From NCBI GenBank assembly GCA_003155655.1, contig PMDS01000077.1, positions 24,877 through 88,876 on the forward strand: a stretch of 64,000 bases of DNA, in the 5' to 3' direction. Below the pieces are notes generated by a model, which made no database searches, had not been told where the DNA came from, and was given only the letters and a program-made list of their open reading frames with translations. Position 1 is the first letter of the stretch. Each line of letters begins with the position of its first letter. The translations under genes and the position numbers were made by a program. This stretch comes from Melioribacter sp. (lineage in GTDB: Bacteria; Bacteroidota; Ignavibacteria; Ignavibacteriales; Melioribacteraceae). Positions 32,833-38,819 of the stretch are shown here, piece by piece.

Positions 32833-33864
32833 ATGAACTTAAACGGACTCATCTTGAAACTGGATCCAGAGGATCAGTTCAATGTTCTAATAGATTCTTA
32901 CAAGCAAATTGAATACGCCTGGGAAAATAAATTTGATTGTTCATCAATTGACACTGCTAAAATTAAAAATATTATTGTAACCGGGTTGGGCGGTTCAGCA
33001 ATTGGAGGGGACCTGATTCAAAACTATTGTAGAAAAGAATTAAAACTACCGTACTCGGTAAATAGAAATTATGAACTTCCTGCTTATGCTAATAATGAAA
33101 CATTAGTTATTGCTTCTTCCTATTCAGGAAATACTGAAGAAACTATTTCTGCTTTGAACCAGGCTATAGAAAGAAAATGCCAGGTTGTATGTATTTCCAC
33201 AGGTGGAAAAGTTGAAGAAATTTCAAAAAGAAACAATGTTCCGTTTGCAAGGTTAAAAACCGGATTTCAACCCCGGTACGCCCTTTGGATTAATTTTTTT
33301 ACATTGCTAAAAACATTCCATTTATTGAAATTGGTCCCGGATCAAAATGAAAATGTTGCGCAGGCAATTATTTTACTAAAAAGAAAAGGAGAATTATACT
33401 CAAAACTTCCGGCAAACACCGCAAGCAATCTTGCTGAAGAATTATTGGGATTTATTCCTGTAATATATTCTGTTAGTGATTATACTTCTGCAGTAGGAAC
33501 CAGATTGAAAGGAGAGTTCAACGAGAATTCAAAACAGCATGCGTTTTATGGATATTTACCCGAGCTGAATCACAATGAAATTCTTGGCTGGGAAGGTTAT
33601 AAACCTGCTATGAATTTGAAGCTGATAAATATCCTTGATGAAGATTATCATCCCCAGGTTAAAAAAAGAATAGAACTTACTTCACAGCTAATTGAAAAAG
33701 CGGGTGTAGAAATTATAAATCTTAAAAGCTCAGAAGCTGACGTAAAATTAAGATTGATTGATTTGATTTATCTTGGAGACTGGATAACATATTATTACGC
33801 ATTAATGCGTGGACAAAGTCCGACATCCATTGACAGCATAAACTACTTAAAAGAACACCTTTAA
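32833..33864 (+). CDS. Bifunctional phosphoglucose/phosphomannose isomerase
   Basis: 343 residues with two SIS sugar-phosphate isomerase folds. Motifs: VTGLGGSAIGGDLIQNYC, ASSYSGNTEETISAL, a catalytic Glu in GEFNENSKQHAFYG, and ELNHNEILGWE. This small form of PGI/PMI is known from archaea and some bacteria and interconverts glucose-6-P or mannose-6-P with fructose-6-P. It follows ptsI with no gap and is the last gene of the isoprenoid-PTS operon. I find no clear terminator in the 150 bases after it. Confidence 0.9.
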   Translation: MNLNGLILKLDPEDQFNVLIDSYKQIEYAWENKFDCSSIDTAKIKNIIVTGLGGSAIGGDLIQNYCRKELKLPYSVNRNYELPAYANNETLVIASSYSGNTEETISALNQAIERKCQVVCISTGGKVEEISKRNNVPFARLKTGFQPRYALWINFFTLLKTFHLLKLVPDQNENVAQAIILLKRKGELYSKLPANTASNLAEELLGFIPVIYSVSDYTSAVGTRLKGEFNENSKQHAFYGYLPELNHNEILGWEGYKPAMNLKLINILDEDYHPQVKKRIELTSQLIEKAGVEIINLKSSEADVKLRLIDLIYLGDWITYYYALMRGQSPTSIDSINYLKEHL

Positions 33865-34016: not shown

Positions 34017-34319
34017 ATGAAAAACTATTCTTCATCTGATATATTGGAAATTCTTGAACAGAACAATGATTTATTAAGAAAATACAGTGTAAATAAAATT
34101 GGTTTGTTTGGATCATTTTCAAGGGATGAAGCGGATATCAGTAGCGATATTGATTTATTAGTAGATTTTGAACAAAAATCATTTGATAATTTTATTGATC
34201 TTTCCTTTGAACTTGAGAAAATATTTAATAGAAAGGTTGATCTTCTAACTGAAAAGGGGATTAGCCCATACATACTTCCATACTTACAAAATGAAATTCG
34301 CTGGTATGAAGCACGATAA
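34017..34319 (+). CDS. MNT-type nucleotidyltransferase (antitoxin-like partner of HEPN)
   Basis: 100 residues with the minimal nucleotidyltransferase pattern GLFGSFSRDEADISSDIDLL: the GSF...R and DxD catalytic motif. MntA proteins neutralise HEPN toxins by AMPylating them. The expected HEPN gene does begin, overlapping the end of this one at 34306, but breaks off after about 18 codons. So the antitoxin seems to have outlived its toxin. A GAGAAA ribosome-site-like stretch precedes the ATG. It may now be a decaying orphan. Confidence 0.85.
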   Translation: MKNYSSSDILEILEQNNDLLRKYSVNKIGLFGSFSRDEADISSDIDLLVDFEQKSFDNFIDLSFELEKIFNRKVDLLTEKGISPYILPYLQNEIRWYEAR

Positions 34320-34361
34320 AGTATATTTACAGCATATACTTGATGAACAATTAAAATTATC
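34306..34361 (+). pseudogene. Truncated HEPN (DUF86-type) toxin gene, 5' remnant
   Basis: An ATG overlapping the MNT gene opens with MKHDKVYLQHILDEQLKL, which looks like the first helix of DUF86 HEPN proteins. From about 34362 the frame runs into a copy of the polA 3' end read on the opposite strand, and it stops at 34413 after 35 codons in total. The catalytic RxxxxxH region, normally near residue 100, is absent. This is a broken toxin cut at the junction with the duplicated polA segment. Confidence 0.7.
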
Positions 34362-34394
34362 TAATGTGCATTCAGCCAATTATTGCCAACTCCG
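34362..34394 (-). repeat. Displaced copy of the polA 3' end (left direct repeat)
   Basis: 33 bases match polA's terminal bases at 35977-36009 at 31 of 33 positions, in the same orientation. Read on the minus strand it still encodes GVGNNWLNAH and a stop; real polA ends GVGNNWLDAH. One mismatch is silent and the other changes Asp to Asn. Similarity ends sharply at the right. With the right copy it flanks the Phd/PIN and VapB/PIN genes, the layout left by integration at a gene 3' end. Confidence 0.85.
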
Positions 34395-34413
34395 TTTTAT
34401 GCCCAGTCATTAA

Positions 34414-34456
34414 TTGCTATTCATCCCGCTGTAGTTTATATTATGAAGTATAAACT
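34414..34456 (+). promoter_or_regulatory. Promoter and operator-like inverted repeat of the Phd/PIN operon
   Basis: TTGCTA (34414-34419), a 17-base spacer and TATATT (34437-34442) form a sigma-70-like promoter. The perfect inverted repeat AGTTTATA/TATAAACT (34433-34440 and 34449-34456) overlaps the -10 box. This is the expected place for autorepression by a Phd-type antitoxin complex. Confidence 0.55.
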
Positions 34457-34473
34457 CATAAGAAGGTAAAATA

Positions 34474-34713
34474 ATGCATTCTACAGCTAAAGAACTTAGA
34501 TTTAATACAAAAGAACTTCTTGAATCAGTAGCCCGCGGTGAAGAAGTGATAATAACATTCCGGGGAAAACAATGTGCAAAATTAGTCCCTATGAAGCAAT
34601 CTAAAAATAACGCTGAAAAGAACGATGAACTATTCGGTATATGGAAAAACCGGACTGATTTGAAAAATGTTGATTTATACGTTCGTGAACTAAGAAAAGG
34701 GAGGTTCTTATGA
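34474..34713 (+). CDS. Phd/YefM-type antitoxin
   Basis: 79 residues. The N-terminal MHSTAKELRFNTKELLESV and GEEVIITFRGKQCAKLVPM match the Phd/YefM DNA-binding fold that dimerises and represses its own promoter. The C-terminal tail (FGIWKNRTDLKNVDLYVREL) should wrap and block the toxin. The stop overlaps the PIN gene start by four bases, the standard antitoxin-first order. An inverted repeat over the promoter just upstream fits autoregulation. Confidence 0.87.
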   Translation: MHSTAKELRFNTKELLESVARGEEVIITFRGKQCAKLVPMKQSKNNAEKNDELFGIWKNRTDLKNVDLYVRELRKGRFL

Positions 34714-35090
34714 TAATGATAGATACAGATGTTTTAATATGGTACATGAGGGGCAATTCTAAAGTTAAAGAAGTGATTGAAAAGTACAACAATTTTTTTA
34801 TATCGGTAGTTACGTATATGGAATTAGTTCAAGGAATGCGGGATAAGTATGAGCTAATATTATTAAGAGGTGCATTAAGAAAATGGAATGTAAAAATACT
34901 TTTTATAAATGAGGATATTTCGGCTAAAGCAATGTTTTTAGTAGAGCATCATTATCTTAGCGCTTCATTAGTATTGGCAGATGCCCTAATAGCTGCAACA
35001 GCTATTACAAACGGTCTGAAGTTACTTACGGGAAACATTAAGCATTATAAAATAATTAAGAATATTGAACTTGATGGATTCAAACCATAA
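34710..35090 (+). CDS. PIN-domain toxin (VapC-type ribonuclease)
   Basis: 126 residues. The acidic PIN residues are present: Asp in MIDTDVLIWYMRG, Glu in TYMELVQGMRDKYEL, and Asp in LVLADALIAATAI, with a fourth acidic position (usually in the GNxKHF region) replaced by LTGNIKHYKII. VapC enzymes cut tRNA or rRNA to halt growth. The ATG at 34710 has AGGGAGG five bases upstream; 34716 is a second in-frame ATG. It is coupled to the Phd antitoxin by a four-base overlap. Confidence 0.88.
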   Translation: MIMIDTDVLIWYMRGNSKVKEVIEKYNNFFISVVTYMELVQGMRDKYELILLRGALRKWNVKILFINEDISAKAMFLVEHHYLSASLVLADALIAATAITNGLKLLTGNIKHYKIIKNIELDGFKP

Positions 35091-35205
35091 TACAAGAAAA
35101 ACCGTGTATAATCAGCAGTTCAATAAAAGGGTATTTGATCCTGCATCAGCTAAAAAAATAGAGAATGCATTTTGGACTAACCACACTAAAAAACAGCGAG
35201 ACTGA
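35074..35205 (+). CDS. Possible small protein or gene remnant (43 residues)
   Basis: An open frame from an ATG within the end of the PIN gene to a TGA at 35205. It encodes a basic, polar peptide (central part NQQFNKRVFDPASAKKIENA). It has no clear ribosome site and no family I can name. The sequence looks protein-like, without the stop-dense character of the following bases, so it may be a remnant of a gene lost from this island. Chance is possible. Confidence 0.25.
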   Translation: MDSNHNTRKTVYNQQFNKRVFDPASAKKIENAFWTNHTKKQRD

Positions 35206-35248
35206 TGGATTAAAAGCTATACTGTTATTTGCAATTCAAATATATTAG

Positions 35249-35297
35249 TTGATTAATTGTATAGGAATGTGTATAATAACACTATACAATACACATT
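35249..35297 (+). promoter_or_regulatory. Promoter with two interleaved operator-like inverted repeats before vapBC
   Basis: TTGATT (35249-35254), 17 bases, then a perfect TATAAT (35272-35277). Two nine-base perfect inverted repeats interleave over it: ATTGTATAG/CTATACAAT (35256-35264 and 35282-35290) and AATGTGTAT/ATACACATT (35266-35274 and 35289-35297). This is a strong candidate site for VapBC autorepression. The AAAGGAA ribosome site and ATG follow. Confidence 0.75.
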
Positions 35298-35311
35298 AGA
35301 AAGGAAATCAA

Positions 35312-35506
35312 ATGAGAACAAACATTGTAATTGACGATAAATTAATGAATGCTGCTCTTAAAACCTCCGGTCTTTTAACAAAAAAAGATGTCGTGGAGGA
35401 GGCATTAAAGCTCCTTGTACAAGTTAAAAAGCAGAGCAGACTTAAGAAATTACGCGGAAAATTGAAGTGGGAAGGAAATCTTGATGAGATGAGAACAACA
35501 AAATGA
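35312..35506 (+). CDS. vapB: VapB-type antitoxin
   Basis: 64 residues beginning MRTNIVIDDKLMNAALKTSG, with GLLTKKDVVEEALKLLVQ: the ribbon-helix-helix of VapB antitoxins of the DUF2191 kind that pair with PIN toxins. The short C-terminal tail (RKLKWEGNLDEM region) is the toxin-binding part. Its stop overlaps the PIN gene start by four bases. The promoter upstream carries interleaved inverted repeats, so the complex probably represses itself. Confidence 0.88.
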   Translation: MRTNIVIDDKLMNAALKTSGLLTKKDVVEEALKLLVQVKKQSRLKKLRGKLKWEGNLDEMRTTK

Positions 35507-35895
35507 TTCTAGTAGACTCTTCAGTATTCATTGACTACTTCAATGGAAAAAATAATTGGCATACTGATGAATTAAATTCTTTATTAGGTAACGAATTAGT
35601 AATAATTGGAGATTATATATTAGCAGAGGTTTTGCAAGGTTTTAGAAATGATAAGGATTTTAAGTTTGCTAAAGAAATAATGCAATCTTTTCCCTGTTTT
35701 AATATTTGTAATCAAGAATTAGCAATAAAAAGTGCCGGGAATTTCAGATATCTCAGAACAAAAGGAATAACTATTAGAAAGACAGTTGATTTAATAATAG
35801 GAACATTCTGTATCGAAAATGAAATAGAATTATTACACAATGATAAAGATTTTGAATTAATGGGACAGCACTTAAATCTGAAAATTAGAAAATAA
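35503..35895 (+). CDS. vapC: VapC-type PIN-domain toxin
   Basis: 130 residues with PIN acidic residues: Asp in MILVDSSVFIDYFNG (also Asp in FIDYF), Glu in YILAEVLQGFRNDKDF, Asp in KTVDLIIGTFCIEN, and Asp in LLHNDKDFELM. This is a complete four-acid nuclease site, so the toxin is probably active. It lies in a four-base overlap with vapB. The gene ends 80 bases before the polA stop codon, convergent to it, inside the segment bounded by the polA direct repeats. Confidence 0.92.
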   Translation: MILVDSSVFIDYFNGKNNWHTDELNSLLGNELVIIGDYILAEVLQGFRNDKDFKFAKEIMQSFPCFNICNQELAIKSAGNFRYLRTKGITIRKTVDLIIGTFCIENEIELLHNDKDFELMGQHLNLKIRK

Positions 35896-35975
35896 TTTTA
35901 AACACAATCCATACATCATATTATATTTAACGCACTCAATAACTTTATCATACCATTTGATTTTCCCAATTTTAA

Positions 35976-38819
35976 TTAATGCGCATCCAGCCAATTATTG
36001 CCAACTCCGGTCTCCGCAATAACAGGAACATTTACCGGCAGTGCATTTTCCATTAATTTAACAATTAACGGTCTAAGTTCATCAACTTCATCTTTATGGG
36101 CATCAAAAACCAATTCATCATGGACTTGTAAAACCATTTTTGTCTTGGCTTTCTTCTTTTCAAGCATCTTGTGAATTTTTATCATTGCGAGTTTTATCAT
36201 ATCGGCTGCAGAGCCCTGTATTGGCATATTAATAGCCACACGGGCTTCAAACTGCTGTACAACCCTGTTCTTACTGTTTATGTTCCTCAAGTAGCGCCTG
36301 CGACCGTATAAAGTCTCAGCATAGCCCTTTTTCTTTGCGCTGGCAACACAATCATCCATGAATTTTCTAACATTCTTAAACGAGTTAAAATATCCGTCAA
36401 TAATTTCCTTAGCTTCAGACTGAGTAATACCCAATCTTATTTTTAGACCAAATGGACCTAGACCATATAGAATTCCAAAATTAACCTCTTTAGCTTTGCG
36501 CCGCATATCCTGGGTTACATCTTTAGGATCAACTTTGAAGATTAACGCAGCAGTTCTTCTATGTATGTCTTCGCCGGAATTAAATGCTTTGGTTAATGCT
36601 TCATCACCGCAAATGCTTGCCATTATCCTCAATTCAATCTGACTGTAATCTGCAGAAAGTATAACATAATTTTTATCGCGGGGAACGAAAGCTTTTCTAA
36701 TCTCTTTTCCCAATTCAGTTCTAATTGGAATATTTTGAAGATTCGGATCATTACTCGACAATCTTCCTGTTGAAACAGCAGCTTGATTGTAAGACGTATG
36801 CAGTCTTCCGGTTTTAGAGTGAATTAAGTTAGGTAGTGAATCTGCATAAGTAGATTTTAGTTTTGAAACCTGCCTGTAATCTGATATAACATCAATAATT
36901 GGGTGCAATCCTTTAAGTAATTCTAATGATCTTGCATCGGTAGAAAAACCAGTTTTAGTTTTATTAGTTTGAGGTAGCTTTAGTTTTTCAAATAGAATTT
37001 TTTGAAGCTGCTGGGTCGAATTAATATTAAAGTTCTCACCGGCATGCTTAATTATTTCTTTTGAATAGTTATCCAGAAGAATTTGAAGATCATCACTGAA
37101 TGCCTTCAAACTTTTCGTATCTATTCTTATACCGGTACGTTCCATATCTTCAAGAACGGGAACAAGAGGGAATTCAATATCGTAAGCAAGTTTTTCAAGA
37201 TTCTCTTTTTTTAATATCCCCTGGAGCAAGTTGTAAAGTCTGAAAGTAATATCAGCATCCTCACTTGAATAATCAGAAAGCCTGTTGGGGTCAATTTCAA
37301 AGATTTTTTCAGGGGTCTTTTTTGAACCTATTAAGTCAAGAAGAGGAATTGGTTTATAATGCAGGTATTTTTCAGAAAGATCATCCATGCCGTGTTTCTC
37401 GTCAGGATCAATTACGTAACTTGCCAGCATTGTATCAAAATAAAAATTGCGTGTTTCAATTCCAAAAAGTCTTAGAACCCCAATATCATATTTACCATTC
37501 TGACAAACTTTTTTGATCTTTTCATTTTCAAATACCGGTTTGAATATTTTTACAAAATCATCAACCGGCAGCCTGTCGCTTGTATCAAAAGAAAATAATG
37601 TTGAGGATTCCTTTGAGGGATTTGTTGCAACATAGAAAGCTTCTTTGGGTTTCATTGCAAAGGAACACCCTGCAAGATTTAAATTAAGCGTATCAAGTCC
37701 GTCTGTCTCAGTATCAAAAACAAATAAATCACAGGCAGAAAGTTTACTGGCAAGCTCTTTTGCTTCTTTGAATGATAATATCAGTTTGTATTTTACTTTG
37801 CTTTTTTCAAATGAACTAATTTCCTTAACATCAACAATATCTACTGGTTCCTGTACTTCAATTTTTTCAACCTTTGATTCTATTTGTTTCTCGATCCCGG
37901 TTTCTACAAATATTTTCTTTAGTTTGCCTGCAAACGACTTAAATTCAAGTTCACCAAATATTTTTAATAGTTTCTCAATATTTGGGTTATGGAATTTTGC
38001 TTCATCAAAATTCATGTGAAAAGGGGTATCGGTCTTTATTGTTGCCAATTCTTTTGAAAGGAATGCATTTTCCTTATTCTCGGAAAGTTTAGTAACAGTA
38101 CCTGCTTTGCTTATTTGATCCAAATTTTTATAAATATTCTCAAGAGTCTTAAATTGCTGTATTAACGGTACAGCAGTCTTTGGACCTATTCCTGCAACAC
38201 CAGGAATATCATCGCTTGAATCGCCTACAAGCGCCAAATAATCAATCATTTGAATGGGATCAAACCCCATATCTTCGCGAACTTTATTCTCATCAATAAT
38301 TTCAATTTCATCTGTCGATTTTCCCGGTTTTACAACTCTTATATTGGGAGAAATGAGTTGGATGTAATCCTTATCGGGTGTAATGGCATAGCAGTCAAAT
38401 CCTTTCTTTTCTGCTTCTTTAACTGCGGTTCCAATTAAATCATCAGCCTCATAACCCGGAAGGATGTAAAGTGGAATGTTAAATGCTTCAATTATTTCTT
38501 TAATTCTCTGAATCTGAGGAATCATATCTTCCGGCATTGCCTGGCGGGATGATTTGTAATTCTCATACCGTTCATGACGAAACGTTTTTTCTTTGGAATC
38601 AAAACCAACGGCAAGGTATTCAGGCTTTGTATCCTCTATAATTTTAAATAACTGATTTAAGAAACCATAAACAGCAGAAGTTGGTTCTCCGGAAACGGTT
38701 AGCAGTGGTCTTGATATGAAAGCATAATAACCTCTGTAAGCGAGAGCCATTGCATCTATAATTACAAATTTTTTCTTTGGAAGCGATGCTTCCTTAGAAG
38801 GTTTTTTGACTGGTTTCAT
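35976..38819 (-). CDS. polA: DNA polymerase I
   Basis: 947 residues with all three domains. The 5' nuclease occupies about residues 15-300 (FVIIDAMALAYRGYYAF, LPGYEADDLIGT). The 3'-5' proofreading domain is about 340-540 and has intact exo motifs (FDTETDGLD, DTMLASYVIDP, YSSEDADI). The polymerase domain is about 560-947 (ILSADYSQIELRIMA, KAKEVNFGILYGLG, VLQVHDELVFDAH). It fills gaps in repair and replaces Okazaki primers. Its last 33 bases occur again at 34362-34394, beyond the toxin-antitoxin genes that lie downstream of it. Confidence 0.97.
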   Translation of the reverse strand: MKPVKKPSKEASLPKKKFVIIDAMALAYRGYYAFISRPLLTVSGEPTSAVYGFLNQLFKIIEDTKPEYLAVGFDSKEKTFRHERYENYKSSRQAMPEDMIPQIQRIKEIIEAFNIPLYILPGYEADDLIGTAVKEAEKKGFDCYAITPDKDYIQLISPNIRVVKPGKSTDEIEIIDENKVREDMGFDPIQMIDYLALVGDSSDDIPGVAGIGPKTAVPLIQQFKTLENIYKNLDQISKAGTVTKLSENKENAFLSKELATIKTDTPFHMNFDEAKFHNPNIEKLLKIFGELEFKSFAGKLKKIFVETGIEKQIESKVEKIEVQEPVDIVDVKEISSFEKSKVKYKLILSFKEAKELASKLSACDLFVFDTETDGLDTLNLNLAGCSFAMKPKEAFYVATNPSKESSTLFSFDTSDRLPVDDFVKIFKPVFENEKIKKVCQNGKYDIGVLRLFGIETRNFYFDTMLASYVIDPDEKHGMDDLSEKYLHYKPIPLLDLIGSKKTPEKIFEIDPNRLSDYSSEDADITFRLYNLLQGILKKENLEKLAYDIEFPLVPVLEDMERTGIRIDTKSLKAFSDDLQILLDNYSKEIIKHAGENFNINSTQQLQKILFEKLKLPQTNKTKTGFSTDARSLELLKGLHPIIDVISDYRQVSKLKSTYADSLPNLIHSKTGRLHTSYNQAAVSTGRLSSNDPNLQNIPIRTELGKEIRKAFVPRDKNYVILSADYSQIELRIMASICGDEALTKAFNSGEDIHRRTAALIFKVDPKDVTQDMRRKAKEVNFGILYGLGPFGLKIRLGITQSEAKEIIDGYFNSFKNVRKFMDDCVASAKKKGYAETLYGRRRYLRNINSKNRVVQQFEARVAINMPIQGSAADMIKLAMIKIHKMLEKKKAKTKMVLQVHDELVFDAHKDEVDELRPLIVKLMENALPVNVPVIAETGVGNNWLDAH
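35977..36009 (-). repeat. polA 3' end, right direct repeat
   Basis: The final codons of polA and most of its stop codon, matched 31 of 33 by the copy at 34362-34394, giving a repeat period of 1615 bases. If the segment was inserted by site-specific recombination, this would be the junction that restored a functional polA end. Confidence 0.85.

Follow-up and report, generated by a model that had tools for sequence, protein, structure and literature searches.

Two toxin-antitoxin (TA) gene pairs in a Melioribacter sp. genome lie between the end of polA and a second, displaced copy of the polA 3' end. We think it reasonably probable that foreign DNA, made up of a polA 3' end together with its cargo, was recombined into the resident polA by the homologous recombination of the host. 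This explanation rests on the second tail itself, on empty sites in relatives, on the cargo and mosaic polA ends of a genus mate, and on the recurrence of the layout at other genes. The window is the whole 64,000-nucleotide (nt) stretch of contig PMDS01000077.1 that was analyzed, and all coordinates are those of the window; its own genome, designated G000, was assembled in 137 contigs. The two repeat copies (34362-34394 and 35977-36009) share their orientation, are ~1.6 kb apart, and are identical at 31 of 33 bases. On the minus strand, the right copy reads GVGNNWLDAH followed by a TAA stop codon, and the left copy reads GVGNNWLNAH followed by TAG, a single Asp-to-Asn change. The original prediction, made from the sequence alone, had taken the right copy to be the genuine polA end and the left one to encode the same terminal peptide with this change and a stop codon, and comparison of the repeats, translation, and Pfam matches all bore it out. 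No tRNA gene was found in the window with ARAGORN.

The second polA tail in G000 is not due to chance. Across 98 genomes of the order, each polA tail was compared with its own downstream DNA over up to 3 kb (the complete 3 kb in 86 of the 98). The score was 28.0 for G000, 102.5 for the genus mate G010, and 15.0 for the next-best genome, and mismatched pairs of tails and downstream regions (n = 300) reached at most 19.5. A second tail was found behind polA in 2 of the 98 genomes, G000 and G010, and none was found within up to 3 kb in the other 96. A degenerate search pattern covering the final 33 bases of polA occurred twice in 6 of 164 genomes: the two occurrences were adjacent in G000 and G010 and lay on separate contigs in G036, G048, G095, and G130. 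The paired tail copies of G048, G095, and G130 are identical, and one of each pair is close to a contig end. Separately, contigs of the draft genomes G008, G048, G130, G136, and G137 end <100 bp past polA; this observation, made without a control, would fit strain variation there.

What follows polA was compared in 12 genomes of the genus, G000 included. In G005 and G006, a sugar-isomerase gene, identified by the likeness of its frame to the gene in the window, adjoins polA directly. Insertion had been expected, in the original prediction, to be reflected in relatives by empty sites with a single polA end or by different cargo between polA ends; the former exist in G005 and G006 and the latter in G010. 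A conserved gene of 201 amino acids (aa), without a Pfam match in the G004 copy that was scanned, lies next to polA in G001, G002, and G004. A gene for a Y1-type (IS200-like) transposase is found directly 3' of polA in G003 (L035:15157-15699), G007 (L034:794-1321), and G009 (L011:406-960), the products scoring above the Pfam cutoff in G003 and G009 and slightly below it in G007. In G011, polA is followed by an antitoxin-like gene and mazF; among the G010 homologues of this pair, MazF matches PF02452 and the antitoxin-like partner has no Pfam match. The MazF block (L036:1504-2235 in G010, L041 in G011) begins immediately after a polA stop codon in both genomes and is 97% identical between them, with flanks that are 78% identical on the left and 67% identical on the right. 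The sequence of G008 stops 66 bp past polA. The DNA behind polA is a hot spot of turnover.

G010 is the more informative of the two genomes with a second tail. Its gene order is polA, a CBM48 gene, a second polA tail of 195 nt, and the MazF pair. In the eleven windows that precede the final 216 columns, the body of G010 polA is nearest to that of G005 (83 to 92% identity), versus 67 to 82% for the same windows compared with G003, G004, G007, and G008. Within the final 108 nt, the functional copy matches G011, G004, G003, and G007 at 92 to 94 positions and G005 and G001 at 76, and the displaced copy matches G005 and G001 at 93 to 94 positions and G011, G004, G003, and G007 at 77 to 86. Judged by these clade matches, the functional polA end of G010 is foreign, coming from another clade, and the displaced end is native. 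Farther upstream, between -195 and -109, 11 of 87 sites distinguish the copies. Under a single crossover, the displaced copy should hold donor sequence in this stretch; under a combination of one homologous and one illegitimate junction, both copies should be native and alike. The G010 alignment thus favors a single crossover, although the stretch closely resembles no known clade. The foreign functional end is also compatible with homology-facilitated illegitimate recombination.

The same layout recurs around other TA modules. Long direct repeats flank 27 of the 111 TA loci that were scanned (G000 included), and the remaining 84 have no such repeat. At a score of at least 20, repeats flanked 8 of 20 TA loci, 2 of 14 further modules, and 4 of 19 MNT-HEPN loci. 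At a score of at least 22, they flanked 13 of 58 MNT and MazF loci found with Pfam, a set from which 2 of 60 loci had been left out as the already known polA MazF loci of G010 and G011. Among controls, repeats were present at 6 of 404 pseudo-modules placed in the window and at the same loci (cutoff, 20) and at none of 30 acetyltransferase loci (cutoff, 22). Mismatched flanks scored at least 20 in 3 of 360 comparisons, at most 21.5 in a further 210, and at least 22 in 1 of 400. The Fisher values for enrichment at TA loci (2e-14 and 7e-4) are only a guide: the sets were scanned with different thresholds and flank lengths, the loci were the top matches of their searches rather than randomly sampled, and more than one locus came from several of the genomes. 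Repeat length varies, from 33 bp in G000 and 195 bp at G010 polA to 30 to 213 bp at other TA loci.

Nine of the 27 repeats are the ends or starts of flanking genes. Six are 3' ends, namely, those of polA (G000), a P-type ATPase gene (G156), a gene without assignment (G061), a short-chain dehydrogenase gene (G063), a gene of 222 to 227 aa without a Pfam match (G011), and a gene for a dihydroorotase-like amidohydrolase (G157); the other three are the starts of hsdM (G150), of an enoyl-CoA hydratase-family gene (G158), and of a gyrase/topoisomerase A gene (G010). The polA ends of G010, with the CBM48 gene as cargo, make a tenth gene-end pair. In six 3'-end cases, G157 not among them, homology ends no more than 8 nt from the end of the coding frame. 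The displaced copies in G063, G156, and G150 contain in-frame stop codons and are therefore not working gene ends from mixed strains.

Differences between the coding copies are concentrated at third codon positions. Pooled over nine pairs (G010 polA and eight gene-end repeats), they fall at positions 1/2/3 in the ratio 22/8/76; the G010 gyrase-start pair, with one difference, was left out, as were frames in G045, G115, and G090 that were taken for chance. The third-position share of 0.72 (76/106) exceeds one half, which is our own estimate of the maximum share under local duplication with one drifting copy (P = 5e-6; P = 0.005 without G010 and G063). The excess means that most of the copies diverged while functional, in separate lineages. 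A model in which one copy drifted after local duplication does not fit the pooled data. The differences between the two G000 copies (1, 0, and 2 at positions 1, 2, and 3) are uninformative taken alone.

Gene ends are also stacked at a second locus in the genus, behind a gene of 222 aa. In G003 (L408), this gene is followed by NnrU-like cargo (PF07298) and then by a displaced tail; G004 has the same cargo and displaced tail spread over two contigs (L407 and L409), whose adjacency we infer. In G011 (L411), MNT-HEPN genes are followed by a displaced tail and then by an NnrU-like gene, recognized by the likeness of its start. In G004, the displaced tail gives way to DNA which, judged by eye, is similar to that behind the single gene of G005; a BanI-like restriction gene (PF24447) comes next. 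In G006, a frame similar to this BanI-like gene adjoins the 222-aa gene. Another gene follows it in G007, G000, G001, and G002, where no second tail was found. The NnrU-like and BanI-like genes indicate that the cargo extends beyond TA modules. A broader and more tentative suggestion is that, in Ignavibacteriales, small accessory genes, TA pairs among them, might spread as recombinase-free cassettes that use the end or start of a neighboring housekeeping gene as a homology arm. Such cassettes would enter the same gene in other species, replacing and displacing its end, and repeated rounds would stack cargo and ends; we regard this as possible and put it forward with less confidence than the explanation for the polA ends.

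The cargo between the polA ends of G000 consists only of the Phd/PIN genes, a 33-codon frame, and the VapB/PIN genes (Table 1), a content that had been predicted and that Pfam and the list of frames confirmed. The Phd/PIN block (34430-35091) recurs elsewhere without the VapBC block, at 72 to 77% identity in the 15 best genomes, and the VapBC block (35224-35897) occurs where the Phd block is absent, at 85 to 87% identity in G137, G069, G045, and G111. On the far side of the displaced tail lies a gene that is cut at this tail. We take it to encode a HEPN protein from its position behind an MNT gene, the stump itself having no Pfam match; full-length homologues stand behind MNT in G041, G011, and other genomes.

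Table 1. Features at and around the two polA ends of G000 (window coordinates)
Feature	Position	Strand	Basis or remark
Sugar isomerase (bact-PGI_C), conserved neighbor	32833..33864	+	PF10432
MNT nucleotidyltransferase, intact, partner of cut gene	34017..34319	+	PF01909
Stump of gene, truncated at second polA end after about 14-19 codons	34306..34361	+	Intact homologues behind MNT elsewhere
Displaced second polA 3' end with its own TAG stop	34361..34394	-	Repeat comparison and translation
Segment between polA ends	34395..35975		Repeat boundaries
Phd/YefM antitoxin	34474..34713	+	PF02604
PIN-domain toxin, partner of Phd	34710..35090	+	PF01850
33-codon frame	35104..35205	+	Read by eye; outside both recurring TA blocks
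VapB antitoxin	35312..35506	+	PF09957
VapC-like PIN toxin	35503..35895	+	PF01850
True polA 3' end, right repeat copy	35976..36009	-	Within polA (35976-38819); Pfam DNA_pol_A

In the explanation that we favor, polA would have taken the incoming end as its working end, with the old one left behind the cargo. The fragment may have been circularized by ligation of its ends and integrated via one crossover in the polA end, in which case an element-encoded enzyme would be unneeded; a nearby alternative route would combine one homologous and one illegitimate junction. In Escherichia coli, linear DNA can be ligated into circles that enter by a single crossover (PMC3240628). We infer that G000 shares the history read from G010 and the other pairs, together with the circle and the route of uptake.

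Several points weigh against this explanation. The two G000 copies differ at 2 of 33 bases and in the stop codon, too few differences to reveal two lineages, and the donor lineage of G000 is not demonstrable from 33 bases. The Asn codon of GVGN is common to both copies and is replaced by that of another residue in the 11 genus mates, so both copies may come from one lineage. A search of 164 genomes for a donor of the insert, with two candidates scored in each, found only separate modules, none of them beside polA. The weakest point is the cut gene beside the second tail, for which one must assume a deletion that came earlier or was coupled. The displaced copy of G010 fits no clade clearly between -195 and -109, and homology in G157 ends 34 nt short of the stop codon, an exception among the 3'-end cases. 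Furthermore, 18 of the 27 repeats do not correspond to gene ends, and 2 of these 18 resemble integron-type arrays: a VapBC module in G090 (L182) has an integron integrase ~3 kb away, and another in G057 (L181) lies inside a five-copy repeat array. These two modules are probably integron-type cassettes. The repeat in G123 contains simple repeats. The identity of G000 polA to its genus mates is flat, at about 62 to 83%, and a check for mosaicism was uninformative.

Among the alternatives, a true long target duplication fares best, and we consider it unlikely. Here, the cargo would have become flanked by a duplication of 30 to 200 bp of the recipient's own DNA, a process that has been proposed for restriction-modification genes. 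The similar layout, variable repeats of the order of 100 bp, and addictive gene pairs described in PMC3874152, PMC3031569, and PMC1643837 speak for it, and the G000 copies could share one lineage. A duplication of the recipient's own DNA accords poorly, however, with coding copies whose differences lie mainly at third codon positions and with polA ends from different clades in G010. It also does not lead one to expect homology that stops within 8 nt of the frame end in six 3'-end cases (G157 not among them), which is expected for alleles with unrelated downstream DNA.

The original prediction had suggested either a very small mobile cassette at the polA 3' end, moved by an enzyme encoded elsewhere, or the remnant of a larger element. 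The insertion with a displaced end is supported; movement by a dedicated site-specific enzyme or integrase is not, an enzyme acting in trans keeping a small probability. A site-specific mini-element, with the repeats as attL and attR and an integrase elsewhere moving the TA pairs, would suit the 3'-end location, the intact gene end, the compact cargo, and the different cargo at the same place in G010. However, the repeat starts 33 nt from the polA end in G000 and 195 nt from it in G010, which in these two cases leaves no constant crossover core, and unrelated genes are used, at 5' starts as well as at 3' ends. The repeat copies in relatives are, moreover, mostly alleles of different lineages. 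No recombinase gene was found between the two G000 copies in the frame list or with Pfam. G000 has no integron integrase above the curated cutoff (best TIGR02249 match, 1.5e-24), other recombinase families not having been searched genome-wide. We therefore regard a mini-element as distinctly improbable. The idea that all TA-flanking repeats are attC sites was likewise dropped, since 9 of 27 are gene ends; it is still likely for G090 and G057.

Slightly less credible again is local repair, in which the 33-base polA end would be filler copied when the neighboring gene was cut, with the TA pairs already present. The short second tail, the odd junctions on both of its sides, the gene cut exactly there, and the shared Asn codon speak for such an event, but it leaves unexplained a copy that ends at the stop codon, the layout in G010, and the layouts at other genes. 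An assembly artifact, with polA and TA genes from one strain joined to a polA tail from a different strain, is very improbable: most of the genomes are drafts, and such errors fall where strains differ, but the displaced copies with in-frame stops and the enrichment of TA loci over pseudo-modules of the same loci argue against it.

TA pairs move between genomes, but for those that are not on plasmids, phages, or transposons no vehicle is obvious, and a displaced foreign gene end would be a readable footprint of their entry. The layout suggests that TA genes need no enzyme of their own to spread, ordinary recombination being enough, and the footprint makes TA entry countable in any set of related genomes.

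At the minimal mobile element loci of Neisseria, the cargo between conserved genes varies and is exchanged through homologous recombination, as we propose here; to our knowledge, no second gene end remains there, unlike at polA. The routes in PMC3240628, entry of circularized linear DNA by a single crossover and homology-facilitated illegitimate recombination, would likewise leave cargo between two homologous segments or between a homologous and an illegitimate junction, but they come from laboratory plasmid conjugation and not from natural TA cargo. Integron gene cassettes, as described in PMC2654758, also place TA modules between repeats, and integrons are common in this order, which looks rich in them (57 of 164 genomes have an integron integrase above the curated cutoff). 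In contrast with integron cassettes, the present repeat consists of a gene end; inspection by eye showed no attC site in the G000 segment, for which no attC model was run. In Microcystis, a TA pair lies between 152-bp direct repeats next to MaOC1, which resembles the present case; unlike here, the repeats described in PMC7935541 are identical, stand 14 bp behind the gene, and contain internal inverted repeats. In the literature searched, which was covered in part, we recognized no report of displaced gene ends around TA modules. The closest known kind of event is the insertion of restriction-modification genes with long target duplication. Insertion of this sort was reportedly described by Nobusato in 2000 and Furuta in 2010. 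PMC3874152, PMC3031569, PMC1643837, and PMC4978471 report target duplications that are long and variable, of the order of 100 bp, and, as here, they concern addictive pairs that are linked to no known mobile element and flanked by direct repeats of variable length. Relatives without the cargo also have a single copy of the repeat (here, no second tail within up to 3 kb in 96 of 98 genomes, with empty sites in G005 and G006). The present cargo differs in being toxin-antitoxin and not restriction-modification genes, and the copies in G010 and in the pooled pairs do not both appear to derive from the recipient's target, a point on which G000 alone is uninformative. Recombination of a foreign gene end with its cargo thus offers an alternative reading of the long target duplications reported at restriction-modification genes.

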